Assembly (NCBI RefSeq): GCF_016592575.1
Contig: NZ_AP017470.1
Location: 496,001-560,000, forward strand
DNA: 64,000 nucleotides
Source of the DNA: Thermotomaculum hydrothermale
GTDB taxonomy: Bacteria; Acidobacteriota; Holophagae; Thermotomaculales; Thermotomaculaceae
Direction: 5' to 3'
In this document: positions 18,596 to 32,351 of the stretch, piece by piece
Numbering within the stretch: position 1 is the stretch's first letter
Layout of the letters: each line of letters starts with the position of its first letter
Made by a program: the position numbers and the translations under genes
The notes under the pieces: generated by a model
What the model was told of the DNA's origin: nothing
Database searches by the model: none
The model's input: only the letters and a program-made list of their open reading frames with translations

Positions 18596-19522
18596 ATGAG
18601 CGAAAAAGAACATAAGGAATGGAAAACACAAATAATTAAGCCTGGTGATTTAAAGAAAAAAACTCAGGAGAATATTACCCTTATTCCCACCTTAGTGGTG
18701 ATTGCAGGGGATTTGTTCGGGCAAATGATAAATCTTGAAGAGAGAAAGAAGGTGTTTGTAGGTAGGGGTAGTGAATGCGATATTGTAATAAACAATCCAT
18801 CTCTTTCAAGAAAGCATTGTGTTGTGAAAAATGAAAATGGAAAGATAATTATTGAAGATTTAGGAAGCACAAACGGAACTTTTATAAATGGTAACAGGAT
18901 AAAAAAACAGGAACTTGAAAGTGGAGAGAGGGTTTTTTTAGGTGATATATGCGCTTTTAAATTTGCCTATCAGGACGATATTGACCTTGATTTAAACAGG
19001 CTTATACTTGAAAAGGCAATAAAGGATAGATTAACCAATGTTTATAATAGAACCTATTTTGATGAGTTGTTGAGGAAAGAGTTTGTGTTTCATAAAAGGG
19101 CGAATTTACCTCTTTCTTTGGTTTTTGTTGACCTTGATGATTTTAAAAAGATAAACGATACATTCGGGCATATGTGTGGAGATGAGATTTTAAAAAAGGT
19201 TGCAATGAGTTTAAAATCAAATGTGAGGGAATCAGATTATGTATGCAGATATGGGGGAGAAGAGTTTGTGATAATTCTTAAAAACACATCCTTTGAAAAG
19301 GCTATGAAAAAAGCAGAAACTTTAAGAAAAAGAATTGAATCGCTTGAATTATTGTGTAATTCAAACAGTGTTGGAGTAACTGCAAGTTTTGGGGTTTCAA
19401 CTTTAGAAGACAACAATTTTAAATCAGAAAAAAGACTTCTTGCTGAGGCTGATTCAGCAATGTACAAGGCCAAAGAGCTTGGTAAAAATATGGTAATAGG
19501 TCAAAAACCTTCTGAAATATAA
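18596..19522 (+). CDS. FHA-GGDEF diguanylate cyclase
   Basis: Cytoplasmic protein of 308 aa. Residues about 30-125 form a forkhead-associated domain (VFVGRGSECDIVINNPSLSR, then H, then LGSTNGTFINGNRI), a phosphothreonine reader. A GGDEF domain follows: LTNVYNRTYFDELL, FVDLDDFKKINDTFGHMCGD and YGGEEFVIIL. The I-site RxxD is intact (RESD-YVCRY-GGEEF), so the enzyme should be active and product-inhibited. FHA domains usually recognise targets of Ser/Thr kinases, and two such kinases lie within 9 kb, so kinase control of cyclic di-GMP synthesis is a reasonable inference. It appears to be transcribed alone. Confidence 0.92.
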   Translation: MSEKEHKEWKTQIIKPGDLKKKTQENITLIPTLVVIAGDLFGQMINLEERKKVFVGRGSECDIVINNPSLSRKHCVVKNENGKIIIEDLGSTNGTFINGNRIKKQELESGERVFLGDICAFKFAYQDDIDLDLNRLILEKAIKDRLTNVYNRTYFDELLRKEFVFHKRANLPLSLVFVDLDDFKKINDTFGHMCGDEILKKVAMSLKSNVRESDYVCRYGGEEFVIILKNTSFEKAMKKAETLRKRIESLELLCNSNSVGVTASFGVSTLEDNNFKSEKRLLAEADSAMYKAKELGKNMVIGQKPSEI

Positions 19523-21482: not shown

Positions 21483-22271
21483 ATGGAAAAGAAGATTTTG
21501 ATTGTCAACTATCAGCCTCGTAAATTGGAGAAATGGCAGTCCCTTTTAAAAGATATTGAAGGCAAGGTTTTTGCTGCTGCAAATGGTGAAGATGCCTTGA
21601 AGATTTTTCAAGAAAACCAGCCTGATATCATTGTCATAGATCCTATGCTTCCTAAAAAATCAGGTTTTGATGTTATTAAAGAGATTAAGGATAAAAAACC
21701 TGATACAAAGATCGTTGTTGTTGCTTCGGTGCATAAGGGTGTAAAGTATCAAACCCTTGCCAAAAACACCTATCATGTAGATGAATTTCTGGAAGAACCT
21801 ATTGATGACGAAACTTTAAAAGAAAAAGTTACTAAAATTGTGGGATTCTCTGTGGATTCTAAGATCCTTGAAGAGTTGATCGATTCCAGCAAAGAACATG
21901 AGAGGTTAAATTTAAAAGAAACGGTTAAGTCTAAAAAGAAAAAGGCTTCAACAAAGAGAAGATTTGAAGAAATAATTGAAGAAACTCTTTCTGGCAAAGT
22001 AATCGAAGATTTACCGAAGAAAAAAGTAAAGAAGCCTAAAGGTGGAGAAGAAGAAAAAGTATTTACCTCAGAAGAATTATTCAGTGATGTTATAAGCGAA
22101 GTAGAAGAATCTTTTATTGATCAAACTCTGGATAGTCTTGTTGACGATAAAAAAGAAGCAAAGCCGAAAAAGGATATTGACAGTGTGGAAGAAGAAATTG
22201 AGGAGAAACTTGAAAAAACCCTTTCAGGTCTTAAAGTAGATAAAAAGAAAAAACCAAAAAAGCAGTTATAG
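21483..22271 (+). CDS. degenerate receiver (REC) domain with Lys/Glu-rich tail; probable N-terminal part of a receiver-kinase polyprotein
   Basis: Residues 1-120 are a receiver domain: KKILIVNYQPRKLEKWQ, then DIIVIDPMLPKKSGFDVIKE with the phospho-acceptor Asp at residue 53. The acidic pair that binds magnesium is replaced (Asn9-Tyr10 instead of Asp-Asp) and the conserved Lys before Pro106 is Glu105, so classical phosphorylation is doubtful. Residues 125-262 are a highly charged Lys/Glu/Ser tail. The tail runs into A AAA AAG, and the next frame (-1) continues the same type of tail into a kinase without a start codon of its own. The ATG at 21483 is chosen for its GAGGTAA site; an in-frame start 48 bases upstream lacks one. 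Confidence 0.8.
   Translation: MEKKILIVNYQPRKLEKWQSLLKDIEGKVFAAANGEDALKIFQENQPDIIVIDPMLPKKSGFDVIKEIKDKKPDTKIVVVASVHKGVKYQTLAKNTYHVDEFLEEPIDDETLKEKVTKIVGFSVDSKILEELIDSSKEHERLNLKETVKSKKKKASTKRRFEEIIEETLSGKVIEDLPKKKVKKPKGGEEEKVFTSEELFSDVISEVEESFIDQTLDSLVDDKKEAKPKKDIDSVEEEIEEKLEKTLSGLKVDKKKKPKKQL
22256..22262 (+). promoter_or_regulatory. A AAA AAG slippery heptamer at the REC/kinase junction
   Basis: Zero-frame codons are CCA AAA AAG CAG TTA TAG, so the heptamer A AAA AAG sits in the phase needed for -1 slippage by tRNA-Lys, as in E. coli dnaX. After a -1 slip, reading continues GCA GTT ATA GAG into the kinase frame, which has no in-frame stop from 22244 onward. The zero-frame stop is 7 bases past the heptamer. 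I see no strong downstream hairpin and no upstream Shine-Dalgarno-like stimulator. A one-base indel in the A6 run is the main alternative. Confidence 0.55.
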
Positions 22272-24559
22272 AGTCAAAATCTGTTAAAAAAGAAGAAAAG
22301 AAGGAAGAAAAAGTAGAAGAGGAAAAAGCTGAGCAAATTGAAAAAGAGGATAAAAAGAAAGAAAAAGGTATTGAATATGGAAATTACCTGCTTCTTGAGA
22401 AGGTTGCAACTGGTGGTATGGCTGAACTGTTCAAGGCAAAAAGAAGGGGAGTTCAGGGATTTCAAAAAATAGTTGCAATTAAGAGAATTCTTCCTCATCT
22501 TGTTGAAAATGAAGATTTTGTGACAATGTTTATTGATGAGGCAAAGCTTGCCGCTCAATTAAACCATCCGAACATTGCTCAGATTTATGATTTAGGAAAA
22601 ATTGAAGACACCTTTTACATAGCAATGGAGTATGTTGAAGGGCATGATTTAAGAAAAATTCTTAAAAAATGTAAGGAGAAAGGATGCCAGATACCGGAGC
22701 CAATAGTCCTATTTGTGGCATCAAAGATTCTAAGTGCTCTTGATTATGCTCACAGGAAAAAAGGCCTTGATAATAAAGACCTTCATATTGTTCACAGAGA
22801 TATAAGCCCTCAGAATATAATTCTATCCCTTGAGGGAGATGTTAAACTTGTTGACTTTGGAATTGCTAAAGCAGCAACAAAGGCGAGCCAAACTCAGGCA
22901 GGAGCTTTAAAGGGCAAACTGCTCTATATGAGCCCAGAACAGGCCTGGGGAGAGAAAGTTGATAAAAGGTCTGATTTATTTTCCTTAGGTTCTGTAATGT
23001 ACGAGGCTTTAACAGGTAAGAAATGTTTTCTCGCTGATAGTGAGATAAATATACTGGAAAAGGTAAGAAATGTAGATTATATCCCGATAAGGGAAATTAA
23101 TCCCAACATCTCTGAGAAGACAGCAAAAATTATTGAAAAGGCATTAACAAAGGATGCAGATAAGAGATACCAAAGTGCAAAAGAAATGGAGCAGGATATT
23201 CTTGATGTGTTGAATTCATTGCCATATACCGTGAACGAAAGGGCGGTGGCAGAGTTTGTTAATGCACTATACAAAGAAGATATGAAGAAGCTTAAAGAAT
23301 TATCTGAAAAATTGGTTGTTGAGCCGATAGAGAAAAAGGAAAAACCAGAAAAAGTAGAAGAAAAAGAAGATAAAGCCAGAGAAGAAATGGAATCTGAAGA
23401 TTTTTCTATTTCTGAAGAAGATATAGAGTCTGAAGATTTCGAGGAAATTCCTGACAGGAGGGCAAACACCGGCACTGTTGTTGTTCCAAATCCAGAAGAT
23501 TTAGAAAAGTATGAGAAAGATGAATTGGAAAGGTTAGAGAAAGAAGAAAAAAGTAATAAAACAGTGCTTTTTATTGGTGCAATTGCAGCAATTGTTATAA
23601 TCGCAATTATTGGTTATTTTATTTCCTCAAATAAGAAAACAGAAAAACCTGTAGAAAAGGCAAAAGTTGCACAAAAAGTAGAGCCTGAAAATCAGCCTGC
23701 AGAATCTCAGCAAGAGGGAGATAATTTAACCAATAATGACATGACAGCACAAACTCAACAGTCAGAGATGAAACCAGCACCAGACAAGCAAACACAGGTA
23801 ATGACTGATATAGAAAAGAAAAAGCAACAGATGATTGAGGAGTTAACCAAAAAGAAGATAGAAGAACAAAAAAAGAAATTAGAAGCGCAATTGGCAGCCC
23901 AGAAAAAGTTGATTGAAGAAAAGAAGAGAAAGCTTGCAGAAGAAAAGAAAAAGGCGTCAAAAGTAACAGCCCCTAAACAGAAAACAAAAAAAGAAATAGT
24001 TAAAAATACACCTGTTAAGCCTGCTTCAACAAGCTCTCAACAAAATAAGGCTGTAAACAATCCTCCCGTTAATGAAAACACAAAGATTCAGTCTTCAGAC
24101 AAACAGGAAGTTCAGAAGAAAGAAATTACTCAACCTGAAAAAACCACAATTGAAACTAATACGCAATCTCAGGATGTAAATGCTAAAACTACTGAACAAC
24201 CTGCAAAAGAGGCCAAAACAGAAGTGCAGCCTCAACCGGAAACAATTGCACAACCACAGGTTAAGGAAGGGGATCTGGTACCTTTAACAGATGATGTTGT
24301 CAAACCTGTTCCTATTAAAAAGGTAAAGCCAAGATATACCCTTGCAGCAAGGAAAAGAAAAGTGCATGGTACTATTATTGCTCAGGCGCTTATAGATGAA
24401 AATGGAGATGTGGTTGATGTTAGAATTTTAAGAAAAATGAAACATCCTTTTGGTCTTGACAAAGAGGTAATGAAGGCTCTTAAAAAGTGGAAGTTTGAAC
24501 CTGCTACTAAAAATGGGGTAAAAGTAAAAGTTTATGATACATTTTTATTTAAATTTTAA
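22262..24559 (+). CDS. Ser/Thr protein kinase - TM - TonB C-terminal domain protein (downstream part of the receiver-kinase fusion)
   Basis: The frame is open from 22244 and continues the charged linker, then the kinase domain: YLLLEKVATGGMAELFKAKR (Gly loop), FQKIVAIKRI (catalytic Lys), IVHRDISPQNIIL (HRD loop), VDFGIAKA, LYMSPEQAWG. A transmembrane helix (TVLFIGAIAAIVIIAIIGYF) lies near the middle, then a long Gln/Lys/Glu/Ala helical stretch like the TolA/TonB periplasmic spacer, and a TonB C-terminal fold (KPRYTLAARKRKVHGTIIAQ ... VMKALKKWKFEPATKNG). The first ATG in frame (22418) is inside the Gly loop and would delete strand beta1, so the kinase must be entered from upstream. With a -1 shift the whole product would be about 1025 aa. 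No exbB or exbD is near. Confidence 0.82.
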   Translation, partial: AVIESKSVKKEEKKEEKVEEEKAEQIEKEDKKKEKGIEYGNYLLLEKVATGGMAELFKAKRRGVQGFQKIVAIKRILPHLVENEDFVTMFIDEAKLAAQLNHPNIAQIYDLGKIEDTFYIAMEYVEGHDLRKILKKCKEKGCQIPEPIVLFVASKILSALDYAHRKKGLDNKDLHIVHRDISPQNIILSLEGDVKLVDFGIAKAATKASQTQAGALKGKLLYMSPEQAWGEKVDKRSDLFSLGSVMYEALTGKKCFLADSEINILEKVRNVDYIPIREINPNISEKTAKIIEKALTKDADKRYQSAKEMEQDILDVLNSLPYTVNERAVAEFVNALYKEDMKKLKELSEKLVVEPIEKKEKPEKVEEKEDKAREEMESEDFSISEEDIESEDFEEIPDRRANTGTVVVPNPEDLEKYEKDELERLEKEEKSNKTVLFIGAIAAIVIIAIIGYFISSNKKTEKPVEKAKVAQKVEPENQPAESQQEGDNLTNNDMTAQTQQSEMKPAPDKQTQVMTDIEKKKQQMIEELTKKKIEEQKKKLEAQLAAQKKLIEEKKRKLAEEKKKASKVTAPKQKTKKEIVKNTPVKPASTSSQQNKAVNNPPVNENTKIQSSDKQEVQKKEITQPEKTTIETNTQSQDVNAKTTEQPAKEAKTEVQPQPETIAQPQVKEGDLVPLTDDVVKPVPIKKVKPRYTLAARKRKVHGTIIAQALIDENGDVVDVRILRKMKHPFGLDKEVMKALKKWKFEPATKNGVKVKVYDTFLFKF

Positions 24560-24571
24560 CGGGAGGTATTC

Positions 24572-26054: not shown

Positions 26055-26714
26055 TTATTCTTTATTTAAAATTAGGTTACATATTTTTTCTGGATTGTGG
26101 GCAACAAAATCTGCTGTGCATTTTTTTAAATGTTTAACTCCATTAAACCCGTAGGTAACAGCAATTGTTTTTATCCCGGCTTTTTGACCGCTTAAAATAT
26201 CATTGCAGCTATCACCAATCATAAAACTTGATTCTTTATCACCATTGAATTTTTTTAGAATTTTTAGAATAGGTAATGGAGAAGGCTTTTTTTCGGGAAA
26301 ACTATCTCCCCCATAAATAAAGTCAAATAATTCTTTTTGTCCTAATTGTTCAACTACGAGTTTTGATAATCTTTCTGTTTTATTTGAAAGAATACCAACG
26401 ACAAAGTTTGCATCTTTTAGTTTTTTTATACATTCTATTGTTCCCTCATAAAACCTTGTATTATCGGTTAGATGAATGAAATACTTCTTTTTAAAATTAG
26501 AAATAGCATCCTCAATGTCAACTTTAGAATCTTGAAAAAGCCTTTCTACAAATAAAACAAGGCCGTCTCCTACAAATGATGAAATTGTATCTTTGGATAG
26601 GGGGGGTAATTTATAAAGTTTTCTGGTTTCATTTGCAGATAAAACAAGGTCATCTAACGAATCAACCAGTGTGCCGTCTAAATCAAATATTGCTAATTTA
26701 TTCAATTCTTTCAA
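26055..26714 (-). CDS. HAD-family phosphatase, phosphoglycolate phosphatase-like
   Basis: 219 aa. HAD motif I LAIFDLDGTLVDSLDDLV (nucleophile and acid Asp), motif II GILSNKTERL, Lys near EKKPSPLPIL and motif IV FMIGDSCNDILSGQKAG are all present, with a C1-type helical cap between motifs I and II. This is the Gph/PpaX group: hydrolysis of phosphoglycolate or a similar small phosphate ester. The start codon appears to be TTG with AAGGA six bases upstream. It lies inside the end of the upstream kinase gene (17-base overlap), so the two are coupled. Confidence 0.88.
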   Translation of the reverse strand: MKELNKLAIFDLDGTLVDSLDDLVLSANETRKLYKLPPLSKDTISSFVGDGLVLFVERLFQDSKVDIEDAISNFKKKYFIHLTDNTRFYEGTIECIKKLKDANFVVGILSNKTERLSKLVVEQLGQKELFDFIYGGDSFPEKKPSPLPILKILKKFNGDKESSFMIGDSCNDILSGQKAGIKTIAVTYGFNGVKHLKKCTADFVAHNPEKICNLILNKE

Positions 26715-27957
26715 GAAATTCCTTAATCTTTTTTATACAAAGAGATTTTATCACCTTTGCATCATGATTTGTAGGGTCAATTTTTAAAATACTCTCACAT
26801 ATCTCACATGCTTTTATTAAATGTCCCTTATCATGTTCTTCATTTGCTTCAAAAAGCTTTTCTTTAATCCATTTAGCTTTCAGTTTTTCCTGCTCTTTTT
26901 TTAGTTCTAAAAACCTTTTCGCTTTTTCAATAATTTTTTCTGCTTCCTGATTTGCATTATCAAGTTCAAGGACTTTTTTTGCTTCATAAATTGCATCTTC
27001 CAGTTTGTCTTCTTTTAAATTTTGTTTTGCTTTCTCTATATGTTCATCTATTTTGTTCCTCATTTCTTTAAGTTTTTTAATCTGCTCTTTGACATTTAAA
27101 ATTTGTGAGGTAATTGTGTGGTCAATAAAACTCTTTGTTTTTTGTTTTTTCTGTTTTTGCTTTGTAATTATATTCTCTATGGCTTCCCTTAGCTGTTCAG
27201 CACTTGAATACCTTTCAGCAGGATTTTTTGCCAGGCATTTAAAAATGATTTCATTAATATCTTTTGGTGCTCTTGGAATATAATCGGGAGTTTTGTTTAC
27301 AATTTTGCTCATTACTTCAGTCACACTTGTTGCATGAAATGGTTTGTGATAGGAAAACATTTCGTACATAATAGCGCCTATTGAAAATATATCTGACCTC
27401 TCATCAATCTCTATTCCTCTTAATTGTTCTGGTGCCATGTATGAAATTGTTCCTAATATCATACCCTTTTGAGTCATGTGTGAGCTGGCAAGTTTAGCAA
27501 CCCCAAAATCAAGTATCTTAACAACTCCGTCTTCCCTAAGAAAAATGTTGGCTGGTTTTAAATCCCTGTGAATAACTCCCTTAGAGTGGGCATAGGCTAT
27601 TCCGCTTGCAATCTGCCTTGCAATTTCAAGTTTTGACAGGTTTGATAGGGGTTTCTTGTTGTCTATAATGCTTTTCAAACTTTCACCTTCAAGGTATTCC
27701 ATAACAATGTAACAGAAATTTTCAAACTCTTTTAATTCATAAACCTGGACAATGTTGGTGTGATTGAGATTTGCTAAAATCTTTGCTTCTCTATAAAACC
27801 TTTCCTTTATCTCCGGGTTGTTTGCAAGTTGAAGGTTTAAAGTTTTTAGTGCAACATACCTGTTTAATACAGTATCTATGCACTTGTAAACCACCCCCAT
27901 TGAGCCCTGACCTATAACATCTACAATTTCGTACTTGTTTATTTTCCTTACCTTCAT
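26698..27957 (-). CDS. Ser/Thr protein kinase with C-terminal helical/TPR-like region
   Basis: Cytoplasmic PknB-type kinase of 419 aa. Residues 9-270: VIGQGSMGVVYKCID (Gly loop), YVALKTLNL (catalytic Lys), VIHRDLKPANIFL, ILDFGVAKLAS, GTISYMAPEQLRG. Residues 290-419 are charged helices with TPR character (LEDAIYEAKKVLELDNANQE, HLIKACEICESILKIDPTN). No transmembrane segment is seen, unlike the kinase at 22262. The 3' end overlaps the phosphatase gene. Its divergent neighbour is metG; the 134-base gap between them must hold both promoters. Confidence 0.92.
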   Translation of the reverse strand: MKVRKINKYEIVDVIGQGSMGVVYKCIDTVLNRYVALKTLNLQLANNPEIKERFYREAKILANLNHTNIVQVYELKEFENFCYIVMEYLEGESLKSIIDNKKPLSNLSKLEIARQIASGIAYAHSKGVIHRDLKPANIFLREDGVVKILDFGVAKLASSHMTQKGMILGTISYMAPEQLRGIEIDERSDIFSIGAIMYEMFSYHKPFHATSVTEVMSKIVNKTPDYIPRAPKDINEIIFKCLAKNPAERYSSAEQLREAIENIITKQKQKKQKTKSFIDHTITSQILNVKEQIKKLKEMRNKIDEHIEKAKQNLKEDKLEDAIYEAKKVLELDNANQEAEKIIEKAKRFLELKKEQEKLKAKWIKEKLFEANEEHDKGHLIKACEICESILKIDPTNHDAKVIKSLCIKKIKEFLERIE

Positions 27958-31884: not shown

Positions 31885-32351
31885 TGAAAAAGACCAATGT
31901 TATTATTATGGGCGCTGCGGGAAGGGATTTTCACAACTTTAACTGCTTTTTTAGGGATAATGAAGAATATAATGTTGTAGCTTTTACAGCAACCCAGATT
32001 CCTGATATTGAGGGCAGGGTTTATCCGGCGTCATTGGCAGGTAAACTTTACCCTGATGGAATTCCAATATATGCTGAAGAAGAGTTACCTAAGCTTATAA
32101 AAAAATACAATGTTGAACTTGTTGTTTTTTCATACTCAGATGTTCCTTACCAGTATGTAATGCACAGAAGCGCTATTGCAAATGCAGCAGGGGCAGATTT
32201 CATGGTAATGGGCGGACACAGGACAATGCTTAAATCCAGCAAGCCTGTTGTTGCTGTTTGCGCTGTTAGAACAGGTTGCGGAAAGAGTCAGACAACAAGA
32301 AGGGTATGCGACATATTACAGAAGATGGGTAAAAAAGGTTGTTGCTATTAG
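31884..32351 (+). CDS. cyclic 2,3-diphosphoglycerate synthetase-like NTPase, N-terminal fragment (frameshifted gene)
   Basis: The first 150 residues of a protein like archaeal cyclic 2,3-diphosphoglycerate synthetase, usually one chain of about 440-450 aa. They contain VIIMGAAGRDFHNFNCFFRD (nucleotide-binding start), VVAFTATQIPDIEGRVYPAS and VVAVCAVRTGCGKSQTTRR, where GCGKSQTT is a P-loop. The frame breaks after ILQKMGKK and stops 5 codons later. The homologous continuation VVAIRHPMPYGDLEA is found in the +1 frame. Removing one A from the A6 run at 32331-32336 restores a continuous gene of about 438 codons. Either a sequence error, a real mutation, or an unusual recoding event. Confidence 0.8.
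   Translation: MKKTNVIIMGAAGRDFHNFNCFFRDNEEYNVVAFTATQIPDIEGRVYPASLAGKLYPDGIPIYAEEELPKLIKKYNVELVVFSYSDVPYQYVMHRSAIANAAGADFMVMGGHRTMLKSSKPVVAVCAVRTGCGKSQTTRRVCDILQKMGKKGCCY

Follow-up and report, generated by a model that had tools for sequence, protein, structure and literature searches.

The window analysed here, a stretch of 64,000 nucleotides from the genome of Thermotomaculum hydrothermale (contig NZ_AP017470.1, positions 496,001 to 560,000), carries at 21483–24559 a gene, interrupted by a single frame break, whose product joins a degenerate receiver domain and a Hanks-type Ser/Thr protein kinase through one transmembrane (TM) stretch and a TolA-like spacer to a TonB C-terminal domain (TonB_C). 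The domains, their order and their conservation are established, as are a small gene constantly found behind the kinase gene, which we call cc79, and a catalytically dead twin of the kinase encoded elsewhere in the genome. The simplest account of these components, suggested by their co-occurrence and parallel architecture, is an envelope sensor that signals from the outside inwards, in which the Hanks-type kinase with its TonB_C tail would have the pseudokinase as a second subunit and the cc79 product as a partner. We give this reading a probability of about 0.45.

The window protein is encoded in two overlapping frames (Table 1). In the first, a Lys- and Glu-rich linker follows the receiver-like domain, and the second, open between 22244 and its stop at 24557–24559, encodes the kinase, the TM stretch, the charged spacer and TonB_C. 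Pfam matches Response_reg (2e-16, residues 5–116), Pkinase (1e-42) and TonB_C (7.7e-14, 52.3 bits against a cut-off of 24.6), and there is one TM stretch, which bears out the order receiver, kinase, TM and TonB C-terminal domain proposed in an initial annotation made from the DNA letters and their open reading frames. The source genome consists of one 2.3-Mb contig, and its nearest relatives are in the Acidobacteriota; a plasmid search found nothing.

Relative to the same-genus relatives, the window gene is one base short in an A-rich run within 22244–22271. An uninterrupted frame with the same domain order runs from end to end in three of the four same-genus genomes (1028–1104 codons), and in the fourth the frame is unbroken over 815 codons until the contig ends; the full uninterrupted gene is also present in three of four further genomes of the family (995–1015 codons), and the remaining one, G007, gave no close match to the kinase gene. 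This order in a single frame across relatives of the genus and family excludes a chance arrangement. A sequencing error or the recent loss of a single base is the likeliest cause of the break, and we take the gene, with some doubt, to be intact in nature. A second single-base break adjoins an A6 run at 32330–32340 (about 32332), in a highly conserved gene whose intact frame in a relative (438 residues, resembling what we take to be cyclic 2,3-diphosphoglycerate synthetase) matches at 93–96% identity, and this second A6-adjacent break suggests that there are errors in the assembly. An automated scan for frame breaks, in which 69 open reading frames of relatives were examined, flagged one gene and missed the kinase gene, probably owing to the overlap of its two matches in a low-complexity region.

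Two other explanations of the break bear on what is made from this gene. If the one-base deletion is real, the gene is a pseudogene, with a receiver made as a soluble protein and a kinase left untranslated, consistent with the lack of any ATG, GTG or TTG in the kinase frame from 22244 to 22418, a point already inside the kinase domain, and with the intact state of the gene in relatives. However, the kinase and TonB parts are no less conserved than those of intact relatives, with 72–75% identity within the genus over nearly the whole frame, and the break at about 32332 points to sequence error, so that we regard a pseudogene as unlikely. Far less probable is programmed −1 frameshifting, giving a receiver-only and a full-length protein, at the heptamer A AAA AAG in the overlap, presumably a dnaX-like slippery site, which lies in the appropriate frame a short way ahead of the zero-frame stop. 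Lys-rich DNA yields such heptamers freely, relatives read through without a shift, and the stretch that was folded has no stimulatory RNA structure beyond chance (z = +1.13), on which ground frameshifting was rejected.

Table 1. Features of the receiver–kinase–TonB_C gene and of the gene behind it (window coordinates).
Feature	Coordinates	Strand	Details or basis
First reading frame: pseudo-receiver and linker, 262 residues	21483–22271	+	ATG 21483, stop 22269–22271
Degenerate receiver domain	21495–21830	+	N9/Y10 for the acidic pair, D53 kept, Ala at the Thr position, E105 for Lys
Short conserved linker motif TSEELFSDVI	22065–22094	+	family pattern TSxDLFGDxL
Short conserved linker motif TLSGL	22218–22232	+	
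Overlap of the two frames, site of the frame break	22244–22271	+	A-rich, one base fewer than genus relatives
Ser/Thr protein kinase domain	22376–23200	+	VAIK Lys, HRD and DFG; Pfam and residue alignment
Single TM stretch	23561–23623	+	without charged residues or His
TolA-like spacer rich in K, E, Q, T and P, 234 residues	23624–24325	+	putatively periplasmic
TonB C-terminal domain (TonB_C)	24326–24550	+	Pfam, PDB profile matches, fold match
cc79, single-helix coiled-coil gene of 79 codons	24572–24811	+	directly behind the kinase gene

The tail resembles TonB by profile and by predicted fold. A profile of 43 tails searched against the PDB returned 16 sequences at E up to 0.1, and 16 of 16 were TonB entries. 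An AlphaFold model of the tail (mean predicted local distance difference test score 82) is closest to TonB C-terminal domains, its top match being 6i97, Pseudomonas TonB bound to FoxA. These matches, together with that in Pfam, uphold the earlier claim that a kinase is joined here by a TM stretch and a TolA-like spacer to a real TonB_C. The spacer measures 111–232 residues in the 66 tailed homologues. The TM stretch of TonB needs polar residues for coupling to ExbB/ExbD (Ser16 and His20 in E. coli) and an energised TonB carries it at the N-terminus; here it is internal, and its core contains a charged residue or His in none of the 66 tailed homologues, which makes it unlikely that the tail is driven by ExbB/ExbD or the proton gradient.

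No exbB or exbD match was found within the 64-kb window, and the nearest of the three ExbB and four ExbD matches in the genome are more than 400 kb from the kinase gene. The genome has a separate exbB-exbD-exbD-tonB-DUF4388 run (L154:19–3251, minus strand) in the same order as a run adjacent to the kinase gene in relatives. The presence of these separate genes and the composition of the TM stretch agree with the view of the initial annotation that the tail is a sensor or tether rather than an energy transducer. Its remark that no exbB/exbD is nearby is correct for this window, but does not extend to the relatives, as 14 of the 46 with at least 4.5 kb of upstream sequence have an exbB-exbD-exbD-tonB cluster divergently upstream of the kinase, usually with yebC and ruvC before it and DUF4388 behind. 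The same neighbours are retained beside the tailless kinases L019, L053 and L078, and also L084, the 3' end of which is cut; we therefore treat the run as context and not as proof of a link. Capture of the tail from a neighbouring tonB was considered and rejected, because the tails and the neighbouring stand-alone TonBs fall in separate clusters, in an alignment that is short and poorly resolved.

These observations also bear on the proposition that the kinase acts from the inside outwards, controlling TonB-type pulling or competing with the true TonB for receptors. The tail has a TonB fold whose closest match is a receptor-bound TonB, the genome has four matches to TonB-dependent receptor plugs, and the cluster in the 14 relatives lies near the kinase gene, all of which would suit such a role. 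Control of TonB-driven transport is made less likely by the composition of the TM stretch, unlike that of an energised TonB with its His20, and the persistence of exb neighbours in tailless lineages also argues against it; overall we consider it quite improbable.

The initial annotation had described the architecture as unusual, which, by the wider survey, it is not within its phylum. We scanned a genome collection, kept the best 80 of 338 relatives, and counted Pfam domains in the 67 loci with both gene ends, leaving out 13 cut by contig ends; all 67 have Pkinase, 56 have Response_reg and 55 have TonB_C. By our own profiles, applied to 82 complete proteins, 75 have the receiver and 58 the TonB domain, with 57 combining the two; 77 have a TM stretch. 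For these profile counts, and for the receiver, TM and kinase-residue counts throughout, loci of two collections were pooled, with possible double counting of a few organisms, and the same-genus duplicates L086–L090 were left out. Most holders in this set of the best 80 of 338 belong to the Acidobacteriota and two to candidate division CSSED10-310; L105 (a weak match on a very long branch) and L079 are uncertain. Judging from these homologues, the receiver–kinase–TM–TonB_C design is common across much of Acidobacteriota.

In relatives the TonB-like part is not a separate gene unrelated to the kinase, but is fused to it wherever it is found, although it is absent in several lineages. Proteins of the Holophagaceae lack the tail and end right after the TM stretch, a Vicinamibacteria-like group lacks tail, receiver and TM stretch, and the tail is missing in some further lineages, including genomes coded f3. 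The tail is thus not the core of the protein. On the kinase tree we count four changes of state for the tail, three for the receiver and one for the TM stretch; the four changes, and the clustering of tails apart from stand-alone TonBs, suggest that the tail has been inherited vertically.

The receiver and the kinase are conserved to different degrees. The window receiver has the residues named in the initial annotation (N9, Y10, D53 and E105) with Ala in addition at the Thr position, and these are not the residues of a response-regulator receiver; a canonical receiver, combining acidic pair, Asp and Lys, occurs in 0 of 83 members. The kept Asp53 is accurate for the window protein, but is not a family feature, the phospho-acceptor Asp being present in 19 of 83 receivers, and we rejected it on this count as a generally important phospho-acceptor. 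In the kinase, the HRD Asp and the alpha-C Glu are each present in 96 of 96 aligned rows, and the VAIK Lys and the DFG Asp each in 95 of 96. A Pkinase profile match with the VAIK Lys, HRD Asp and DFG Asp identifies the window protein as a Hanks-type kinase, and the conserved catalytic residues suggest that it is kept for catalysis. The motifs TSxDLFGDxL and TLSGL lie between receiver and kinase in most members, and TSxDLFGDxL persists even in forms that have no receiver, TM stretch or tail.

The gene cc79 is preceded in the window by a ribosome-binding-like GGGAGG at 24561–24566. It lies directly behind the kinase gene on the same strand in all 78 loci that extend 400 bases or more beyond that gene, has no second match within these 78 loci, and encodes proteins of about 73–90 residues; it is also present in 10 of 12 further loci. 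When searched alone in the sample of 297 phylum genomes that we used for profile searches, cc79 was found in 112, nearly always once. The kinase or its TonB tail is just upstream in 29 of 30 loci fetched by this search; in the remaining locus no more than 778 bases precede the gene. Searches of Pfam and NCBIfam with cc79 yielded no family reaching the cut-off, and in these databases as in the PDB there were weak coiled-coil-like matches only. The AlphaFold model is a single helix spanning residues 6–62, which says nothing of function.

One of five TonB_C matches in the genome is a 603-residue protein encoded on the minus strand at genome positions 1019388–1021199 (L152:889–2700, minus strand), which consists of a kinase-like domain, a TM stretch, a long charged spacer and TonB_C, in this order. 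HGF replaces HRD and YDL replaces DFG, making this twin of the active kinase a pseudokinase. Neither the twin nor the constancy of cc79 was visible to the initial annotation. In a sample of 21 genomes, relatives of the twin are present in seven of the nine from the family of the window genome (one in two pieces and one a tail fragment) and in all 12 others of the class, at 23–31% identity. A profile of the kinase-like part detects an unlinked short protein of the twin type in at least 74 of the 297 genomes; scoring was limited to a few candidates per genome, so that the true number may be higher. The twin is found in 69 of the 112 genomes with cc79 versus 5 of the 185 without, and in 15 of the 17 searchable genomes carrying the kinase locus. 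HRD is lost and TM stretch and TonB_C are present in 50 of the 50 twin-type proteins examined, with TonB_C confirmed by Pfam in 29 of 29; an additional 388-residue copy in L223 lacks TonB_C. In the Holophagaceae, the f3 genomes and the Vicinamibacteria-like L060 and L071, the active kinase is tailless, yet the twin has a TM stretch and TonB_C. Perhaps the active kinase was able to lose its tail because the twin brings one, in which case the two should act together. The twin lies directly upstream of a constant neighbour gene, present beside it in seven of seven family loci, whose product resembles, presumably, ATP synthase subunit b.

If the envelope-sensor reading is correct, the kinase would face the cytoplasm, because it needs ATP; one helix would span the inner membrane, and the long flexible spacer would carry the TonB domain through the periplasm. 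The TonB domain would there bind the periplasmic side of outer-membrane receptors, at their TonB boxes, or peptidoglycan, and the state of the receptor or the wall would be passed inwards via a change in kinase pairing. Docking surfaces may be provided by the degenerate receiver and the linker motifs, and the coiled-coil product of cc79 may be a constant cytosolic partner. The pseudokinase, with its own TM stretch, spacer and TonB domain, would be the likely second subunit of an active-kinase/pseudokinase receptor pair, with a logic comparable to that of the receptor kinase/pseudokinase pairs of animals. A two-subunit receptor spanning the envelope, composed of receiver–kinase–TonB_C and pseudokinase–TonB_C, with TonB domains that read receptors and a cc79 product that relays or assembles, is a tentative proposal that we think possible, with the odds against it.

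The main rival to the envelope sensor is a passive tether or peptidoglycan clamp, in which the TonB domain only positions the kinase at the envelope and senses nothing. Repeated loss of the tail while the kinase, cc79 and often the TM stretch stay is compatible with such a role, as is the long charged spacer, which is typical of TolA/TonB-like tethers, but the TonB domain has been kept over deep divergence, and in the active kinase as well as in its dead twin, which is more than an anchor needs; we regard a purely passive role as rather doubtful. Several points nonetheless weigh against the envelope sensor. The partner of the TonB domain, the pairing of kinase and twin, the direction of signalling and the topology are inferred, several lineages do without the tail (12 of 67 homologues are without Pfam TonB_C), and the gene is not intact in the window. 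The association of the twin with cc79 is counted per genome, uncorrected for relatedness, 43 of the 112 cc79 genomes have no twin at the threshold used, and no twin was found in the two CSSED10-310 genomes.

Ser/Thr kinases with a TM stretch are well known, as are TonB domains, and the window protein shares features with several known systems. PknB/Stk1 PASTA kinases likewise have a cytoplasmic kinase, one TM stretch and an extracytoplasmic part, and PknB_PASTA is the best NCBIfam kinase score; however, the window protein reaches 279.8 bits against a cut-off of 450 (NF033483), has no PASTA match, and carries TonB_C in the place of PASTA as well as an N-terminal pseudo-receiver. With TonB/TolA-type transducers it has in common the C-terminal fold and the long charged periplasmic spacer, but differs in its internal TM stretch without His or charge, the kinase ahead of it and the lack of adjacent exbB/exbD. 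Proteins of the AgmX/PglI type (NF033768) also join other domains to a TonB-like tail, although at 29.8 bits against a cut-off of 40 the window protein is not a member. BlaR1-like M56 peptidases with a TonB_C tail have TonB_C in the place of the periplasmic sensor, and a metallopeptidase where the window protein has a kinase. In the open-licence literature, as surveyed by titles and the openings of abstracts, we found no description of the kinase–TonB_C fusion, its spread in the phylum, cc79 or the pseudokinase twin, which is weak evidence of absence.

Little is known of how bacteria convey the state of their outer membrane to a kinase in the cytoplasm, and the kinase–TonB_C family is a physical candidate for such signalling, in a large and little-studied phylum and with three defined components that can be tested. 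The family further provides an example of a TonB domain in a protein other than TonB, and of a pseudokinase in bacteria with nearly the same domains as its active counterpart.

Two other genes near the kinase gene encode proteins with signalling-like domains. The product of 18596–19522 is FHA-like and GGDEF-like by its translation, and a second Ser/Thr kinase-like protein is encoded on the minus strand at 26698–27957, about 2.1 kb downstream of the kinase gene. Kinase matches are present at the corresponding place on the same contig in the same-genus genomes G001, G002 and G004.

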